Assembly (NCBI GenBank): GCA_902791625.1
Contig: CADAWN010000003.1
Coordinates: forward strand, 1 to 64,000
Direction: 5' to 3'
Length of the DNA: 64,000 bases
Source: an uncultured Erysipelotrichaceae bacterium
GTDB lineage: Bacteria > Bacillota_I > Bacilli_A > RF39 > UBA660
Part shown: positions 41,601-52,095 of the stretch, in pieces
Layout of the letters: each line of letters opens with the position of its first letter
How positions within the stretch are numbered: the first letter of the stretch is position 1
Translations under genes and position numbers: made by a program
The notes under the pieces: generated by a model
The model's database searches: none
Told to the model about the DNA's origin: nothing
Seen by the model: only the letters and a program-made list of their open reading frames with translations

Positions 41601-43306
41601 ATATAGAAGACTTAGTGACTGTAGATACTACTCAAGATTATGGTGATCAATTAACTAATATTGTTAAATATATTTGTGATTTAGGTAAAAAAGAAGAAAT
41701 TAAAACATCTAAATTGTGGTTGGATGCTATACCAGAAAAAATCTTTGTTCAGAATTTAAAAACAAAATATAATTATCAACCAGAACCATATAATATTACA
41801 CCTGTAATTGGTGAGTATGATGATCCAGCTAATCAGAAACAAGGTATTTCTTTGCTAAAAATAAGTGGAGGAAATACATTGATATTTGGTATAGGTGGAA
41901 GTGGTAAAGAGAATCTACTAAATACAATAATATATTCATGCATTACTGAACATAGACCAGAAGAGATTAATTTCTATATTGTTGATTGTGGAGCAGAAAC
42001 ATTAAAAGTATTTAACAAAATACCACATGTAGGAGCGGTAGCAACTACAGGAGAAGAAGAGAAAATATATGGAATATTTGATTATATAGTTGAAGAAATA
42101 GATAGAAGAAGAAATCTATTTGCTGATTTCGGAGGTAGTTACAAGGAATATATTGCAAATTCAAATGAAAAACTTCCTCTTATAACAGTAATAATTAACT
42201 ACTATGATACATTTGAAGAAAATTATGGAAAATTAGCTGATAGTTTAACTACTTTATATAGAGATGGTAGTAAATATGGTGTTATGTTTATTATTACAGC
42301 CAATTCTTCAAACTCTATAACTTCTAGAAATAGACAACATTTTAATAATTTCATCACTTTAAAACTATCTGATGATACAAAATACATGGATGCGATAGAT
42401 GCACCAAAAGGATTAATACCTAGTAACTTCTTTGGTAGAGGTTTAATAAAAGTTGATAAGTCTATTTTTGAGTTTCAGACGGCTTTATTTGCAGAAAGAA
42501 ACCAAATGGTTGCTGGAATTAGACAATTAACTGAGCAAATGTCAAAAACATATTCATATAGTGCTAAGCAAATTAATGTTTTACCATCAGAAGTAAATAT
42601 AAGTATGTTTGATAATACAGAAAAATCTTTAGATAAATTACCAATCGGTTATTCAGAAAATAGTAAAGAACCATACTTCTATAATTTCACTATTAATAAG
42701 ATTAATTCAATAGTGGCTAATGAAATGGATGATGACAAAATTTACTTCATTTTTGCACTTATTAACTTATTGTCACACCTGGAAAAAACAAATATAACTT
42801 TGGTTGATTTTGCAAAAGTATATGATAGAAATTATGATAATGTAAAAGTTATAAATGAGGATTATAATAAAGGTATAATTGAATTAAACAATGATTTCAT
42901 CAAAAACAAAGAAGTCGATAGTAAAAATATTTGTATTATCTTAGGAATAGGTCAAATAAATGAACAACTTGATTCTGGTTCAAAAGAAGTATTGCAACAT
43001 TTTATTGAGAATATAAATACAATGGATAATGCTTCTATAATATTAATAGATACATATTATTCATATAAAAATATTCAACTTGAAAGTTGGTATATGACTA
43101 ATGTAGATAAATCATATGGAATATGGTTAGGTACAGATGTAGGAAGTCAAGTGGCAATTAATATAACTAATCTATCTACAGATGATAGAGAAAATGATTT
43201 CCCACAAATTGGATTTGCTGTTTCAAAAGGTACCAAAGAAACTATAAAATTTGTTATTGACAAGGGGGATGAAGAAAATGAAGAACAAAGTACTAGTACA
43301 AATTAG
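38672..43306 (+). CDS. essC: Type VII secretion ATPase EssC
   Basis: FtsK/SpoIIIE-type motor of the type VIIb secretion system. 1544 residues. The N-terminal about 200 residues are FHA-like. Two membrane segments lie at about 262-315 (SMLMTVGMSITMVSSTFMMG and IVMLVAMIIGTLLIPTIV), followed by a basic stretch. The first ATPase domain has Walker A GSTGSGKSEF (about 725-734) and Walker B HLFIISDEFAEL (about 842-853). The second has a less standard Walker A GIGGSGKEN (about 1073-1081). The third is degenerate. AGTAGGTGTAGG Shine-Dalgarno. The esaB start lies inside its 3' end. Confidence 0.93.
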   Translation: MNIYILDSEKLVKYQLPTKVEEDYSISYKPYGYTNTFLITLEARNGNWIIKSNGSVNVMNNEMIMDESFLQNYYIYPLKMVGVNRLIYVYAMPAENDCIFRLSLDKINQITVGNAANNNISYNNPALGDFQLVINKKENFWEIDLVNVKFAVYINNNLLKTKTRLLKYGDVIFIYGLKIIVMKDFIEINNPNNQVGVNAMFAYNDSDDNTNYQEVSEEDKNVDLYSEDDYFFHTPTIKEVLEEQEINIDTPPGNQNDRNGSMLMTVGMSITMVSSTFMMGYSVFNQLISGKASMKESIPQIVMLVAMIIGTLLIPTIVRRIENRKKKKMEKKRQVLFSKYLDEKEKEITATISNQKNIINTNSPTSEQCKEIISKKGRLFWSRELSDNDFLDIRLGIGTIKSKVKILAPEQHFELETDNLMQKVYDLCEKYKMTSDFPICINLTKKKVSAIVCGGEEKQKYADSVIMQLITLHSPIDLKLCFITNEDNYSKWEYVTMLPHCWNATKDTRLFATNIDEAKELSEKLEEVYKLRRDGDKNKSEEQTEEKKVEEGKEYSKYEDYYLLIVDDFKIAKNLQIINDIQNSQNNYGFSILYLGNNLKQLPAACTSFVEVGSLDGAYLEKSMSSDNQLSFKIEPFNNENMMGYSVTTANIPTITKNGAMELPQSLSFLEMYGVSKIEQLNISNRWKNDSPVSTLATSIGVQEDGELFKLNLHEKYHGPHGLIAGSTGSGKSEFIITYILSMAVNYHPYEVQFVLIDYKGGGLAGAFENKETGVSLPHLTGTITNLDVAEMNRTLVSIKSELQRRQRVFNETKDKLGKSTIDIYKYQKYYRDGLIEDPMSHLFIISDEFAELKQQQPEFMDELISIARIGRSLGVHLILATQKPSGVVNDQIWSNSKFKVCLKVQSRSDSMEMIKRPEAASIKEAGRFYLQVGYDDLFQLGQSAWAGAKYIPSDKILKKVDDSINFISHTGDKYKNIEDLVTVDTTQDYGDQLTNIVKYICDLGKKEEIKTSKLWLDAIPEKIFVQNLKTKYNYQPEPYNITPVIGEYDDPANQKQGISLLKISGGNTLIFGIGGSGKENLLNTIIYSCITEHRPEEINFYIVDCGAETLKVFNKIPHVGAVATTGEEEKIYGIFDYIVEEIDRRRNLFADFGGSYKEYIANSNEKLPLITVIINYYDTFEENYGKLADSLTTLYRDGSKYGVMFIITANSSNSITSRNRQHFNNFITLKLSDDTKYMDAIDAPKGLIPSNFFGRGLIKVDKSIFEFQTALFAERNQMVAGIRQLTEQMSKTYSYSAKQINVLPSEVNISMFDNTEKSLDKLPIGYSENSKEPYFYNFTINKINSIVANEMDDDKIYFIFALINLLSHLEKTNITLVDFAKVYDRNYDNVKVINEDYNKGIIELNNDFIKNKEVDSKNICIILGIGQINEQLDSGSKEVLQHFIENINTMDNASIILIDTYYSYKNIQLESWYMTNVDKSYGIWLGTDVGSQVAINITNLSTDDRENDFPQIGFAVSKGTKETIKFVIDKGDEENEEQSTSTN

Positions 43307-43532
43307 TGTACCTGAAATTAATGAAGAATATGATATATATCTTCCTGTTAATAGAACAATAGGAAATGTTATTAATCTTATATGCCATTCTATATATGAA
43401 TTATCAAATGGTACTTTTAATGGTACCAACAAAACCTTTTTATATAATTCATTAACAGGTGAAAAATATTCATCTGAAGTATTAATTAGAAAGACAAATA
43501 TTAGAAATGGCACAAGATTAATACTTATTTAG
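43278..43532 (+). CDS. esaB: EsaB/YukD ubiquitin-like protein
   Basis: 84 residues, KVLVQISVPEINEEYDIYLP then TIGNVINLI and C-terminal NIRNGTRLILI, matching the small beta-grasp YukD/EsaB component of type VIIb systems. I choose ATG 43278 because GGGGG is 9 bases upstream; ATG 43269 is too close. It overlaps essC by 29 bases, so translation is probably coupled. Confidence 0.82.
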   Translation: MKNKVLVQISVPEINEEYDIYLPVNRTIGNVINLICHSIYELSNGTFNGTNKTFLYNSLTGEKYSSEVLIRKTNIRNGTRLILI

Positions 43533-43543
43533 GGGGAACTAAA

Positions 43544-45190
43544 ATGAAAATAAGTAATTTAAAAATTTATATAACAGAGATAGGTCTTATTGCCAGTGCA
43601 TTATGCACTGGCTGTACTTTAAGTACTAGCAGTACCAATAGTAATCAAATAGAAACAATAAAAGATGTTTCTACTACAGAAACAACATCAACTTTTTCAG
43701 AATCTAGTAGTGATTATAGTTCAATTACTAATAGTGAAATTGATAATACAGAAGATAGTATAAATGTAGATGAATTAAGTGAAAATGAAAAGTCATATCT
43801 CCAGAAAAAAAGCACAATAAATATAAGCTTTTCAAAAACTTTAGATATAATAAATAATACTGATATTAATTGTAAATACAATAATTTATTTGAAATAGAT
43901 AAGGCATTACATATGTATAATTCATCTAAAATAGAAAATATTAATAATGTTGGTATTATAATTAATAATAAGAAGGTTAATAAAGAAAAATTAAAAGAAT
44001 CAATAATAAGAAATAGTAATAGTAATATTGATGGTGAAATATTAAATAAATGTGTTGATATTTTAAAAAATAATATAGACTATTTTTTGCAAGATAATAA
44101 TATAAATATTAATAGATTAGAAAAAAAATTAGAACTTTTAAAAATAGAGGATAATACAGACTTTGCTTACGCTTATTATTCTCCGTCAAAAAACACATTA
44201 GCTATAAATCCAAGAAGTTTAAAAACTATTTCAAATCAAGAAAACTTATCTCTCGATGAGACTTATGAAAGAATAGTAGGACATGAAACAAATCATCTAT
44301 TGCAAGCGATAACAGAAAAAGAAATTAAAGATAATAATTATACTGAATGGTTCGGACCATGCATTAAAAGTCCTAATTTAAAAGTTAATTCATTATATTG
44401 GGAATGGTATATTGAATCATCTGCTGAACAAATGATAGTAGAAAAAGGTAAATATGATTCTCCACTTTTATATCAATTTGAAATAAATGCACTTGATGGT
44501 CTTAAAATTGCAACTTTATTTAATGATAAAAAAACAACAGATTTAGAAAGAATAAGTTTATCAAGCGATATAAATGAATTATATAAGTATTTTAATTGTA
44601 ATACTGAATATGAAAAAAAAGAATTATTAGAACTATTTTATAAACTAAATTTGATATGTCAAGATTCTTTCACTAGCTCATCAGCAGATTTCTACAATTA
44701 TTATGAAGCTAAAAATGGTTATAGATTATTAGGTGAAGAAAAAGAAAAATTTTTATATAATGTTTGTACTTCTGTAGCTATGGATGAGGCTAAGTTATTC
44801 TATAAGAATTTGATTAATAATATATCAAATAAAGAATGTAAATTAGAAGATATACTTCACTTAATATCAATAGAAGAAGATGAATTAGCAATAATTTTAA
44901 AAACAAATGTCAAAGAATATGAAGATGATTATACAAAATTTTTAGAAGCTTATATGAATATTCAAAAATCGTTCTTTGAAGAATTAAGTATATATTATGG
45001 AAAAACAAGTGAAGAAATTCAAGAAATATATGATAAATATCATATTTCAAGCCATCAAGATATAGAGTTATTAAAAGAAGAAAACAGTAATTATTATAAA
45101 AAAATGGAAGAGAATAGAAGCACACAAAAGTATTATAGTATAAACGTATTACAAAAATATAATATACAAAAGAGTGTAAAGTTAAAGTAA
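43544..45190 (+). CDS. Lipoprotein with zinc-metallopeptidase-like HETNH motif
   Basis: 548 residues. The signal ends in the lipobox LCTGC (cysteine at about residue 24), so it should be a lipoprotein on the outer face. A Ser/Thr-rich linker (about 25-85) follows. RIVGHETNHLLQ (HETNH at 247-251) matches HExxH, and YIESSAEQM (Glu291, Glu295) 40 residues later could supply the third zinc ligand of a gluzincin. No named family was recognised. It sits between esaB and the WXG100 genes, so it may process substrates or the cell wall, or be an accessory component. AGGGGGAACT Shine-Dalgarno. Confidence 0.65.
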   Translation: MKISNLKIYITEIGLIASALCTGCTLSTSSTNSNQIETIKDVSTTETTSTFSESSSDYSSITNSEIDNTEDSINVDELSENEKSYLQKKSTINISFSKTLDIINNTDINCKYNNLFEIDKALHMYNSSKIENINNVGIIINNKKVNKEKLKESIIRNSNSNIDGEILNKCVDILKNNIDYFLQDNNININRLEKKLELLKIEDNTDFAYAYYSPSKNTLAINPRSLKTISNQENLSLDETYERIVGHETNHLLQAITEKEIKDNNYTEWFGPCIKSPNLKVNSLYWEWYIESSAEQMIVEKGKYDSPLLYQFEINALDGLKIATLFNDKKTTDLERISLSSDINELYKYFNCNTEYEKKELLELFYKLNLICQDSFTSSSADFYNYYEAKNGYRLLGEEKEKFLYNVCTSVAMDEAKLFYKNLINNISNKECKLEDILHLISIEEDELAIILKTNVKEYEDDYTKFLEAYMNIQKSFFEELSIYYGKTSEEIQEIYDKYHISSHQDIELLKEENSNYYKKMEENRSTQKYYSINVLQKYNIQKSVKLK

Positions 45191-45286: not shown

Positions 45287-45631
45287 ATGCCAAATTTTAA
45301 ACTTGATAATCAAAATATGACAATTCAAGATGCAACTTATGGTATTAGTAAAACTGGAATGGAGCAATATATCAATTCATTAAATGCTTCATTAATTGGT
45401 GATACAAAAAAGATACTAGAACAAGTAGAAGGTATTCAATCAGCAGTAGATGCAGGATGGAATGGTTCTGCAAAGGCCAGTTTCTTAAAATCATTGCAAG
45501 AATCAATAATAAAAGTAGAACAAGATCTTGATAAAGAAGAAGTAAGTTTGAGAAGAAGATTAGATGAATTACAAGCTTCATATATTTATCAAGAAACACA
45601 TATTGCAAAGGCTATTGATGAACAAAGATAA
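45287..45631 (+). CDS. WXG100 protein (EsxA-like)
   Basis: 114 residues in two helices joined by the AGWNGSAKASF turn (Trp-x-Gly at about 64-66). The C-terminal half has YIYQE, which fits the YxxxD/E secretion signal. Strong AGGAGGAAAT Shine-Dalgarno. Expected to be exported by EssC as a dimer, alone or with the next protein. It is somewhat longer than the usual about 100 residues. Confidence 0.85.
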   Translation: MPNFKLDNQNMTIQDATYGISKTGMEQYINSLNASLIGDTKKILEQVEGIQSAVDAGWNGSAKASFLKSLQESIIKVEQDLDKEEVSLRRRLDELQASYIYQETHIAKAIDEQR

Positions 45632-45649: not shown

Positions 45650-46144
45650 ATGAAGACATGGTTTGAAGGTGCTGCTGCTGCACATGGAGATTTTAATGCA
45701 AATAAATTTGTAAATGATACAATTGAAAAAAGATCAGATACAAGAACAAAAGAAACTGAACAGTTTAATTGGACAGGAGGTATTACTGTAGTAGGAATTA
45801 ATGCTCAAAAGATACCTGCTATGATTGAAGCAATTAATACTTATGTAAATAAAGTTAAAAATCATTTAGATGGAATTAAACCAACAGCAGATGCAAATGG
45901 TGCATATAAGGGTGAAGAAGTACAAAAAGCAGTAGAAAACTACGTTAATAAAGTAAAAGAATATTGTTTTAATTTAACAAGTCAATTAAGAGCATTTAAC
46001 GATAAATTATCTGATATTGCAAGTGCATATGATAAGAATAAGAGAAAACTTGCTGAAAATATCAATACTGATACAGGAAGTTATGCTGCTGGTACTGAAT
46101 ATAAAACTGGTACTAATGCTAATGGAGGAACAGTAGGACGTTAG
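45650..46144 (+). CDS. WXG100-like protein with YxG turn and C-terminal tail
   Basis: 164 residues. Two helical stretches flank ANGAYKGEEVQKAVENY, where the Trp-x-Gly turn is replaced by Tyr-x-Gly. The tail (NTDTGSYAAGTEYKTGTNA) is flexible and Gly/Thr rich. It is co-transcribed with the WXG100 gene and likely its partner or a substrate. Strong AGGAGG Shine-Dalgarno. Named family not certain. Confidence 0.65.
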   Translation: MKTWFEGAAAAHGDFNANKFVNDTIEKRSDTRTKETEQFNWTGGITVVGINAQKIPAMIEAINTYVNKVKNHLDGIKPTADANGAYKGEEVQKAVENYVNKVKEYCFNLTSQLRAFNDKLSDIASAYDKNKRKLAENINTDTGSYAAGTEYKTGTNANGGTVGR

Positions 46145-46221: not shown

Positions 46222-46245
46222 ATAATAAGATAGCGGGGTGTGCAT

Positions 46246-46590
46246 GTGGGAAGTGTTAATTATTCATTTAGTTTAAATGAAATTGCTATTAATAATATTA
46301 TATTAGATATTGATAACTATCAAAGGAATATTAAACAAATTTTAAATAGTATGGCAGATATATACAAAGATCTATCAAACAATACTAACTACAATGGTAA
46401 ACAAACATATTTAGCTAAAGCTAATACAGTTGCAGAAAATAATAAAATAATATGTATTAATTTAGATAATTACAAAGCTGATTTAAATAAAATAAAAACA
46501 TTATATAAAAAAGCAAGTATTGATGCAGCAGATAAACTAAATAAAGATGCAAGAAATATGTATGTTGGTACTGAATATAGAAATAAGTAG
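46246..46590 (+). CDS. Small helical T7SS-associated protein with YNG turn
   Basis: 114 residues of two long helices; the centre NTNYNGKQ is a Tyr-Asn-Gly in place of Trp-x-Gly. No signal or membrane part. The start is GTG 46246 after GGGGTG; GTG 46240 is too close to it. First gene of a five-gene unit. Likely EsxA-like in fold, but not a strict WXG100 member. Confidence 0.6.
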   Translation: MGSVNYSFSLNEIAINNIILDIDNYQRNIKQILNSMADIYKDLSNNTNYNGKQTYLAKANTVAENNKIICINLDNYKADLNKIKTLYKKASIDAADKLNKDARNMYVGTEYRNK

Positions 46591-46595
46591 GTGTA

Positions 46596-46868
46596 ATGAT
46601 GGAAGAAAACTTAACTCAAGTTATAGAAAAATATGAATACATAAAAACAAGAATGAATTATTATAAAAACTATACACAGTACGCTTTAAATGATTTAAAT
46701 AAAATTATACCTATATTAGAAAAAAATAGAGATTCTGTGTGCATAGGAAGTTATTTAAAAGAGTTAAAGGCAATAAGAGATAATATAAGTATAAATAGAA
46801 ATAGAATTATTTATACGTTATTACCAGCTTTAGATATTAAATTAACACAACTAAGAAATCAGTTGTAG
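46596..46868 (+). CDS. Small helical protein in T7SS island
   Basis: 90 residues, almost all helix, Tyr/Asn/Lys rich, ending LPALDIKLTQLRNQL. No WxG motif. Not recognised. Starts ATG 46596 or 46599 after AGGTG; 5 bases after the preceding stop. Probably a chaperone or partner of the neighbours, by position only. Confidence 0.6.
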   Translation: MMEENLTQVIEKYEYIKTRMNYYKNYTQYALNDLNKIIPILEKNRDSVCIGSYLKELKAIRDNISINRNRIIYTLLPALDIKLTQLRNQL

Positions 46869-46880
46869 GAGGTTGATAAA

Positions 46881-47162
46881 GTGAGTCAAATCATAATGAA
46901 TACTGATAAAGTAAAGAGTGATGGACAATCTTTGATGAATTTATCAAAAAATCTAAATGAACAGCTTAATGGTCTTTTTAGAGTTTTAGAAAACTTAGAT
47001 AAGATAGGAGCTTGGAAAGGTCAAGCTTCACTATTATATTCAAGCAAAGTAAAAATGGATAAATCACAATACTATGCATTTAAAAATAGTGTATATAAAG
47101 ATGGTAAAAATGCATTTGACGTTGCTTCTTACATGGAAACAGAAATGAGGAAGTTGATATGA
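46881..47162 (+). CDS. WXG100 protein (second)
   Basis: 93 residues. KIGAWKGQASLLY has the Trp-Lys-Gly turn (about 50-52) between two helices, the size and layout of EsxA. GTG 46881 follows AGGAGGTTG. Its stop is TGA, sharing ATGA with the next start, one of only two TGA stops in the window. Confidence 0.8.
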   Translation: MSQIIMNTDKVKSDGQSLMNLSKNLNEQLNGLFRVLENLDKIGAWKGQASLLYSSKVKMDKSQYYAFKNSVYKDGKNAFDVASYMETEMRKLI

Positions 47163-47464
47163 TAGTAAAATATGATAATAGTGCATTAATTAATAAAGTA
47201 TTACCGGGAATAAATACTGCAAAAAGTAAAATCTCAACAAGTGAAATGTATAATATAAAAAGCAAGTGTCCAGATGATTTTAATTGTAGAAATTTATTAA
47301 ATCAAGTACTAAATGAATTACAAGCAGATGTTACAAGATTAACAACACTTTCAAATAATATTAATACCAAAAATACTAGAATAACAGTTATAGATAGAAA
47401 TATTAAAAATAGACTTTATTCAGATAAAGTTGAGACAATGAAAATACAGAAACCGAAGATATAG
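47159..47464 (+). CDS. Small helical protein in T7SS island
   Basis: 101 residues, overlaps the WXG100 stop by 4 bases. It has helical segments and two cysteines (KCPDDFNC). No known family. The size and position are like the small unknowns of type VIIb loci that partner with WXG100 proteins. Confidence 0.6.
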   Translation: MIVKYDNSALINKVLPGINTAKSKISTSEMYNIKSKCPDDFNCRNLLNQVLNELQADVTRLTTLSNNINTKNTRITVIDRNIKNRLYSDKVETMKIQKPKI

Positions 47465-47474
47465 GAGGAAAAGA

Positions 47475-48377
47475 ATGAAAAGGGAAATATTACCAATAGG
47501 TACAATTTGTGAATTAGATAATAGTAAAATAATAATGATTATAGGATATAAAAATATTTCAATAGATAATAAAAATATATCTATAAAAGATTATGTAGGA
47601 GTAAAATATCCAGAAGGAACTTTATCTACTGAAGAATATAAATTTGATAATGAGAATATAAAATCAATATTATATATGGGTTATGTAGATGAAAAATTTG
47701 AGAATATAAAAGCTTTATTAAATGATGAAGTAGATTATGAAGAGAAAAAAATGGAATCTACATATACATTTGATGAAAATGGAGTTATTACTTCTGAAAC
47801 TAAAACACCAGTAAAGAATCCCTTCTCTGTGGAAGAACCAAAAGTAGAAAAATTAGATGAAGATCCTGGTGATTGGCCAATATTTAAGAATATAGAATTT
47901 GATGAAAATGGTGTTGTTGTATCAGCAGAGGAGTATACGCCTTCCAATATACCAGATCAATCAGATGTTTTAGGACCAAAATATCAATTTGATGAAAATG
48001 GAGTTATTATAGGTGTCGAAGATGAAGAAACACAAAATGAAAAAATAACATTAGTTAATGAGTCTGAACCAGTTTATGAGTTTGATGCAAATGGTGTTGT
48101 AGTAGGAGTAAAAGAAGAAGATTCTACTCAAGAAGAACAAACAGAAGCAAGTGAACCAGAATATGAATTTGATGAAAATGGCATTGTTGTAGGAGTAAAA
48201 GAAAAAGAATCTGCTAAAGAAGAACAAACAGAAGCAAGTGAACCAGAATATGAATTTGATGAAAACGGCGTTGTTGTAGGAGTAAAAGAAAAAGAACCTA
48301 CTAAAGAAGAACAAAAAGATACAAGTGAACCAAAATATGAGTTTGATGAAAATGGAATGGTTATAGGTGTAGAATAG
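47475..48377 (+). CDS. DUF4176-type protein with acidic 29-residue repeats
   Basis: 300 residues. The N-terminal about 85 residues match DUF4176, common in T7SS loci (REILPIGTICELDN, MIIGYK, DYVGVKYPEGTLSTEEY). The rest repeats the phrase Y-x-FDENGVVVGV seven times in acidic linkers. The last three intervals are each exactly 29 residues (87 bp, tyrosine codons at 48075, 48162, 48249 and 48336) and near identical, a recent tandem expansion. Cytoplasmic by appearance. Ends the second T7SS group. The repeated region could bind something in series, but no function is known. Confidence 0.75.
   Translation: MKREILPIGTICELDNSKIIMIIGYKNISIDNKNISIKDYVGVKYPEGTLSTEEYKFDNENIKSILYMGYVDEKFENIKALLNDEVDYEEKKMESTYTFDENGVITSETKTPVKNPFSVEEPKVEKLDEDPGDWPIFKNIEFDENGVVVSAEEYTPSNIPDQSDVLGPKYQFDENGVIIGVEDEETQNEKITLVNESEPVYEFDANGVVVGVKEEDSTQEEQTEASEPEYEFDENGIVVGVKEKESAKEEQTEASEPEYEFDENGVVVGVKEKEPTKEEQKDTSEPKYEFDENGMVIGVE
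47755..48377 (+). repeat. Tandem coding repeats, 87-bp unit at the 3' end
   Basis: Seven copies of the FDENG phrase. The last three and a half have exact 87-bp spacing and high identity; earlier copies are spaced 87-135 bp and more diverged. Copy number could vary between strains. Confidence 0.8.
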
Positions 48378-51264: not shown

Positions 51265-52095
51265 ATGGATAGAGTTGCAATAGACTTAGGATTTATACAA
51301 ATATATTGGTATTCAATATTTATTTTACTTGGAATACTTGTTGCGGCAATCTTAATATATAAGGAATGTAAAAAACAAGGTCTAAAAAGCGAAGAATTTA
51401 CAGACCTATTATTTAATACTGTAGTATTTGGAATAATAGGTGCTAGAATTTATTATGTATTATTTAACTTCTCTTATTATTGGAATAATAAAATAGAAAT
51501 ACTTGAGATATGGCATGGAGGACTTGCTATACATGGAGGACTTTTATTTGGAGCTTTATATGTATTACATTTTTGTAAAAAACATAAACTTAATAAATTA
51601 AAATTAATGGATATGATAGTAGTTGGAGTAATTATTGGTCAAGCTATAGGAAGATGGGGTAATTTCTTTAATGGAGAAGCTTATGGACCACTTACTACAT
51701 ATGCTGCTCTTAAACAAAATTTAATACCAGAATTTATAATCAAAGGTATGAAAATACTTGGACAGTATTATGAACCAACATTCTATTATGAATCGCTATG
51801 GAATATTAATGGATTTATAATATTATTACTTGCTAGATCAAGAAAGAAAATTAAGATTGGTCAAATAACAGGAATATATTTCTTATGGTATTCGATTGGT
51901 CGAATGTATATAGAATCTTTAAGAGCAGATAGTCTTATGCTTAAAAACTTTAAAGTTGCTCAAATAGTATCTGGAATATTAATAATAGTAGGTTTAATAC
52001 TAATAATTAAACCAATAATTAAGAAAGAAGATAAATTATATAATAATAAATCTACAACCAGAACTAGTGATTATGAAGAAGATATGATATCTTAA
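51265..52095 (+). CDS. lgt: Phosphatidylglycerol--prolipoprotein diacylglyceryl transferase
   Basis: Membrane enzyme that lipidates the lipobox cysteine. 276 residues, about seven membrane segments. Conserved EIWHGGLAIHGGLLFG with the essential histidine region, then GRWGNFFNGEAYG (the Lgt signature), then YFLWYSIGRMYIESLR. Needed for YidC and the T7SS lipoprotein here. Co-transcribed with uvrA (9 bases) and yvcK. In Bacillus hprK usually precedes lgt; it is absent here. Confidence 0.95.
   Translation: MDRVAIDLGFIQIYWYSIFILLGILVAAILIYKECKKQGLKSEEFTDLLFNTVVFGIIGARIYYVLFNFSYYWNNKIEILEIWHGGLAIHGGLLFGALYVLHFCKKHKLNKLKLMDMIVVGVIIGQAIGRWGNFFNGEAYGPLTTYAALKQNLIPEFIIKGMKILGQYYEPTFYYESLWNINGFIILLLARSRKKIKIGQITGIYFLWYSIGRMYIESLRADSLMLKNFKVAQIVSGILIIVGLILIIKPIIKKEDKLYNNKSTTRTSDYEEDMIS

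Follow-up and report, generated by a model that had tools for sequence, protein, structure and literature searches.

A candidate membrane-anchored zinc peptidase encoded with EssC in a T7SSb subtype of uncultured gut Bacilli

MycP is a surface protease component of the mycobacterial T7SSa (PMC5082899). For canonical T7SSb, a review lists six core parts that are always encoded and mentions neither a lipoprotein nor a metallo-component (PMC10765036), and our search of the open-access literature found no metalloprotease or HExxH protein of T7SSb. Here we analyse a 64,000-nucleotide stretch of DNA (the window) from an uncultured Erysipelotrichaceae bacterium, in which an earlier sequence-only reading had noticed a possible lipoprotein with a HETNH motif between esaB and the WXG100 genes. 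That reading knew of no canonical T7SS protein like it, and the protein, referred to here as the lipoprotein, is likewise undescribed in the libraries and open-access literature that we searched. We propose, with a probability of roughly 0.55, that a reduced T7SSb of uncultured gut Bacilli has in it a dedicated zinc peptidase on the extracytoplasmic side, an analogue of mycosin. Its anchor type, a conserved site, a zincin-like fold, a fixed linkage and co-evolution with one EssC clade were computed here.

The features of the locus are collected in Table 1. The gene order essC, esaB, lipoprotein and WXG genes is as first read, with essC and esaB overlapping. Direct reading places a good ribosome-binding site (AGGGGGA) before the lipoprotein ORF, which starts 11 nt 3' of esaB, and from gene spacing the lipoprotein is likely to share the essC transcript. 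Matches of the EsaB family to Pfam YukD are sub-threshold (4 of 12 members, best E 0.011). The translated DUF4176 protein carries an acidic C-terminal repeat array (YEFDENGVVVGVKE...); DUF4176 proteins are associated with T7SSb substrates (PMC10765036).

Table 1. Features of the T7SS locus and of the lipoprotein gene in the window
Feature	Position	Strand	Evidence
EssC, FtsK/SpoIIIE-type motor, 1544 aa	38672..43306	+	TIGR03928 944 bits, cut-off 778; PF01580
EsaB/YukD-like, 84 aa, overlaps essC end	43278..43532	+	Direct reading; post-essC place constant, 16 loci
Putative membrane-anchored gluzincin (the lipoprotein), 548 aa	43544..45190	+	ORF reading, relatives' alignment, AlphaFold2, Foldseek
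N-terminal signal/anchor, weak lipobox LCTGC24 at its end, Cys24 codon 43613-43615	43544..43615	+	Direct reading
Ser/Thr-rich linker, residues 25-70, predicted disordered	43616..43753	+	pLDDT < 50
HETNH, residues 247-251, putative zinc-binding/catalytic motif	44282..44296	+	H, E, H invariant in 22-member alignment
E291-S-S-A-E295, E291 putative third zinc ligand	44414..44428	+	E291, A294 invariant; E295 nearly
W1, small WXG100-like	45287..45631	+	PF06013 E 0.0012, below cut-off; conserved in loci
W2, small helical, locus marker	45650..46144	+	Profile in same 17/385 genomes as lipoprotein (partly by construction)
W3, small, related to W1/W2	46240..46590	+	One cluster with W1 and W2
W4, small	46596..46868	+	Conserved in 17 loci
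W5, small WXG100-like	46881..47162	+	PF06013 E 0.019, below cut-off; 18 loci
W6, small	47159..47464	+	18 loci
DUF4176 protein, C-terminal repeats	47475..48377	+	PF13780 E 5.8e-16
Lgt gene	51265-52095		PF01790 E=8e-74; ~6 kb 3' of lipoprotein gene

We found the lipoprotein gene together with essC, esaB and the small W genes, within contig reach, in 20 loci that represent about 10 genera, so that the search for neighbours of EssC suggested by the sequence-only reading returned the same protein in the same surroundings. On the stretches examined, essC is present in 17 of the 20 loci while the remaining three show W genes, and the DUF4176 gene occurs in 10. By ORF clustering, the widely conserved neighbours comprise only the lipoprotein, EssC, EsaB, the W families and DUF4176, and within this set membrane segments are restricted to EssC and the lipoprotein. 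The lipoprotein gene may follow esaB, W2 or W6, and this varying place indicates that its linkage to the T7SS is not mere inertia. In two loci (L038 12835-17478 and L042 10176-14762) a tandem second essC-esaB pair lies immediately 3' of the lipoprotein-bearing T7SS locus.

Searching 145 genomes of the family with the window protein alone as the query gave four relatives, while a profile search of 385 genomes of the order returned 17 strong carriers, counting the genome of the window, and about 10 distant ones. A search of named contigs with a tighter alignment gave 9 loci and added MAGs of uncultured Bacilli, many from a series named 'Lapin' (probably rabbit), as well as an Oscillospiraceae MAG. 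Among 344 genomes across the phylum, outside the family, there was no further full-length carrier, and the weak partial matches fell nearly all within the signal/linker region. The lipoprotein is not a universal part of T7SSb, since 17 of the 192 genomes with EssC over the cut-off carry one. Strong relatives L050 and L089 lie outside any T7SS locus, the latter in the Oscillospiraceae MAG, which has no full EssC; genome G033 was ruled out as a lipoprotein genome lacking a T7SS, as a split EssC of another type is present. Distant HExxH relatives away from T7SS loci were found in L052 (7896-9356), L053 (5675-7081), L054 (3264-4670), L055 (7886-9328) and L057 (8328-9767). A second HExxH is present in three of these proteins, and profile comparison of the distant relatives with the lipoprotein gave a probability of 99.8. 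Together with L050 and L089, these distant proteins indicate a larger, undescribed secreted zincin family, of which the T7SS-linked proteins form a single branch.

We found that the lipoprotein and the W2 profile (E < 1e-24) pick out the identical 17 genomes of 385, an agreement that is partly by construction since the W2 profile was aligned from lipoprotein loci. The W set is absent from the sampled EssC loci that lack a lipoprotein, among them L062 (G000:C28:4305-8915), a second, different EssC locus in the genome of the window with neither lipoprotein nor W set. The EssC types of G101 and G327 also come without the lipoprotein. The EssC proteins linked to the lipoprotein form one clade (support 98-100), which also takes in a truncated contig and a tandem copy. 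EssC and lipoprotein distances are correlated (Mantel r 0.85, 0 of 5000 permutations), with shared species history contributing to the correlation. In a sister EssC clade (L092-L095), a different HExxH protein is encoded close to essC; about 470-510 aa long, it has a single transmembrane (TM) segment, an N-terminal 'YKGKxYxMYLD' segment and an extracytoplasmic HExxH...EAL region (L092 14968-16416, L093 8504-9997, L094 6356-7762, L095 1713-3248). The catalytic domains of this protein and the lipoprotein match at a probability of 90 and E 2e-6 in profile comparison, so this TM-anchored protein is probably a remote relative. No HExxH ectodomain was seen at L096 (truncated) or L097, the EssC loci between both clades. 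Sortase-like and collagen-adhesin-like surface genes lie beside the lipoprotein-less EssC locus at L097 (9680-12856). Two other EssC loci that lack the lipoprotein have adjoining ORFs with HEAGHNP (L066 2799-3860, L068 3994-4950), which are perhaps substrates.

Profile searches for the other membrane parts of T7SSb were run on 19 carrier genomes. EssB (YukC) was found in none of the 19, with the B. subtilis control positive. EsaA was not found in the genome of the window and gave sub-cut-off matches in 5 of the 19, all of one genus and on other contigs. EssA was likewise not found in the genome of the window, and the weak matches elsewhere in the 19 genomes were mostly to ORFs of 426-597 aa, which is the wrong length. 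It is possible that EsaA, EssA and EssB have diverged past the reach of the profiles in these genomes. EssC and the lipoprotein are thus the sole conserved products of the locus predicted to be membrane-attached, with EssB, EsaA and EssA not recognisable.

The product of the ORF at 43544-45190 is predicted to be a Sec-type protein anchored in the membrane. The lipobox claimed by the sequence-only reading is a weak one: Cys24 closes a hydrophobic N-terminus, but LCTGC24 is non-canonical, with Cys at -3 in place of Leu/Val/Ile. Relatives show clearer lipoboxes or a TM anchor. Lipobox-like sites (FLTSC, TLSGC, ALGGC and others) occur in 12 of the 21 other relatives, and the other 9 have a hydrophobic N-terminal anchor and lack the lipobox cysteine. 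Given that Lgt is encoded in the window and LspA in the same genome, lipid anchoring is possible. The flexible Ser/Thr linker that had been proposed agrees with the AlphaFold2 model, in which residues 1-70 have pLDDT < 50. A stable 9-bp hairpin (43592-43612, GCCAGTGCATTATGCACTGGC) with a T-containing tail lies within the part of the gene that codes for the signal peptide and might attenuate expression downstream.

Direct reading places HETNH and the downstream Glu291 and Glu295 at the residues first claimed for them. Shuffling the window protein produced HExxH in 0.54% of cases, and HExxH with ExxAE 35-45 residues apart in 0 of 20,000. Its relatives are 20-29% identical to it, and the 22-member alignment (the window protein and 21 others) has a mean pairwise identity of about 25%. 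The sole invariant columns are N157, H247, E248, H251, Q254, E291, A294, Y310, F383, Y420, E445 and Y499, with E295 nearly so. A chance origin of the motif was rejected on the shuffle test together with its conservation in the 22 relatives, and conservation of the predicted metal site at about 25% identity is strong evidence that it is a working one. HExxH is present in 21 of the 22 members; the single close relative with a changed motif, L046 (127-1929), has HESGGH, where catalysis was possibly lost or the assembly is in error.

The AlphaFold2 model of the window protein, built from ten sequences, has a pLDDT of 80 and a pTM of 0.82. HExxH lies on helix 237-254 behind strands 210-213 and 218-221, E291 lies on helix 287-302 behind strands 268-270 and 273-275, and large helical domains are found at the N- and C-terminal sides. 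The whole model had no significant match in the PDB (Foldseek), and the minigluzincin core was visible only after trimming to the catalytic domain (residues 185-345, pLDDT 73). The top 10 PDB matches of the trimmed domain are all minimal gluzincins (selecase, jannalysin and abylysin), with probabilities up to 1.00 at modest E-values of 0.02-0.5, followed by YbeY, SPRTN, ArdC and a Zn-dependent peptidase. The model had no match in a viral structure library. By sequence, the window protein had no match in the PDB and none above the curated cut-offs of Pfam and NCBIfam; the 22 relatives searched singly gave scattered weak family matches, none of them convincing, and Peptidase_S8, a test for a subtilisin-type Asp/His/Ser site, was not matched in the window protein or its relatives. 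The structure prediction that the sequence-only reading had suggested as a check therefore places the two histidines together on a helix and E291 on the helix that follows, with gluzincin-type metallopeptidases as the closest domain structures; the histidines are neither far apart nor part of another known family. The model suggests a gluzincin-type zinc site (HExxH and Glu291) set in a mainly helical fold that is otherwise new, and the protein looks like a zinc protease outside all described families.

We hypothesize that the lipoprotein is exported by Sec and stays attached to the outside of the membrane, by a lipid anchor here and by a TM anchor in some relatives. It would be an accessory or core part dedicated to one T7SSb subtype, placed at the extracytoplasmic exit of EssC or close to it, where it may cleave exported substrates of the W1-W6 type or a neighbouring protein of the apparatus. 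Such cleavage would lead to maturation, release or regulation of the substrate or neighbour, and the lipoprotein would correspond, as a metalloenzyme, to mycosin, the serine protease of T7SSa. Zinc binding, catalysis, a protein substrate and physical contact with EssC are what we infer in this proposal. The label of component, already raised by the sequence-only reading, follows from linkage and co-evolution with EssC, and the lipoprotein is probably a dedicated, unnamed part of the machine of one T7SSb subtype. Because the protease activity of mycosin is dispensable for secretion, linkage to the T7SS is no proof that catalysis serves export.

A broader form of this proposal, which we hold only tentatively, is that EsaA, EssA and EssB are gone from a reduced T7SSb and that the anchored zinc metallopeptidase is the sole other membrane partner of EssC, with both a structural and a substrate-proteolytic role. 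The anchor would then be lipid in one EssC clade, with a TM-anchored remote relative in the sister clade.

Among the roles first offered for the lipoprotein, substrate processing and wall opening remain, while a toxin is disfavoured by the Sec-type anchor and by a single conserved family that is not polymorphic. In wall opening, the metal site would cut peptidoglycan stem peptides or cross-links and let the apparatus or its substrates through, as EssH does in S. aureus. Surface anchoring and T7SS linkage fit this account, as does the dedicated wall hydrolase known for one T7SSb (PMC13059805), but we consider it rather unlikely: the lipoprotein has no peptidoglycan-binding or known hydrolase domain, and its nearest structures belong to minimal metallopeptidases and further HExxH enzymes rather than to wall hydrolases of the M15/M23 type. 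We also doubt that the protein is mainly structural, with an ectodomain that stabilises EssC and replaces EsaA, EssB and EssA and an old zincin site that now aids folding or metal-dependent stability and not proteolysis. In favour of this are the lack of any other conserved, membrane-attached partner for EssC in the locus, the failure to find EssB in 19 genomes, the large helical terminal domains of the model, the L046 member with HESGGH, and the structural nature of the essential role of mycosin (PMC5082899). Yet in this fast-evolving protein nothing is conserved more strongly than the site, catalytic Glu248 included, and a purely structural role would not call for that residue.

It is very unlikely that the lipoprotein serves as an effector or toxin at the surface, with protease activity against host or rival proteins, and is encoded in the T7SS locus by happenstance. 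Surface metallopeptidases are common and orphan relatives occur away from T7SS, but the N-terminus is of the Sec/lipoprotein type, no conserved immunity-like gene adjoins the lipoprotein gene, and, in contrast to polymorphic effectors, the family stays constant within its clade and evolves in step with EssC. A toxin exported by the T7SS itself was rejected, as the LXG/WXG export domain is absent and the family is constant. Remoter still is an ordinary lipoprotein that plays no part in secretion and hitch-hikes in the operon, which would suit its presence in a minority of the family's EssC loci but not a linkage held over about 10 genera through gene-order rearrangement, in loci that retain no other non-T7 gene.

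Compared with known proteins, the catalytic region has its top structural matches (residues 185-345) among the minigluzincins, selecase/jannalysin of Methanocaldococcus and abylysin of Pyrococcus, which share the HExxH core; these are archaeal proteins of about 105-110 aa that align over 67-91 columns and have no significant sequence match to the lipoprotein. The Pfam families Peptidase M48 and SprT-like also share HExxH, and a few relatives have sub-threshold matches to them (best E 0.0021, 1 of 22 members), but no member is assigned to either. EssH of the Staphylococcus aureus T7SSb is a dedicated extracytoplasmic hydrolase (PMC13059805), as proposed for the lipoprotein, but it is a CHAP amidase/endopeptidase that cuts peptidoglycan and has no domain in common with it. 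With canonical T7SSb (EsxA, EsaA, EsaB, EssA, EssB, EssC) the locus shares EssC, an EsaB-like protein and WXG100-like proteins; it differs in that EssB was not found, and EsaA and EssA not convincingly, in 19 genomes, and in that the HExxH protein is extra. If our proposal is true, a lineage with EssC, EsaB-like and WXG-like proteins and a surface metallopeptidase, in which EssB is not recognisable, would show the extent to which T7SSb can be pared down. Mycosin (MycP) is a subtilisin-type serine protease with no homology to the putative HExxH zincin of this T7SSb, but MycP is, and the lipoprotein would be, a membrane-anchored extracytoplasmic protease encoded in a T7SS locus (PMC5082899). T7SSb would thereby gain a mycosin counterpart that is open to functional tests as a purified ectodomain.
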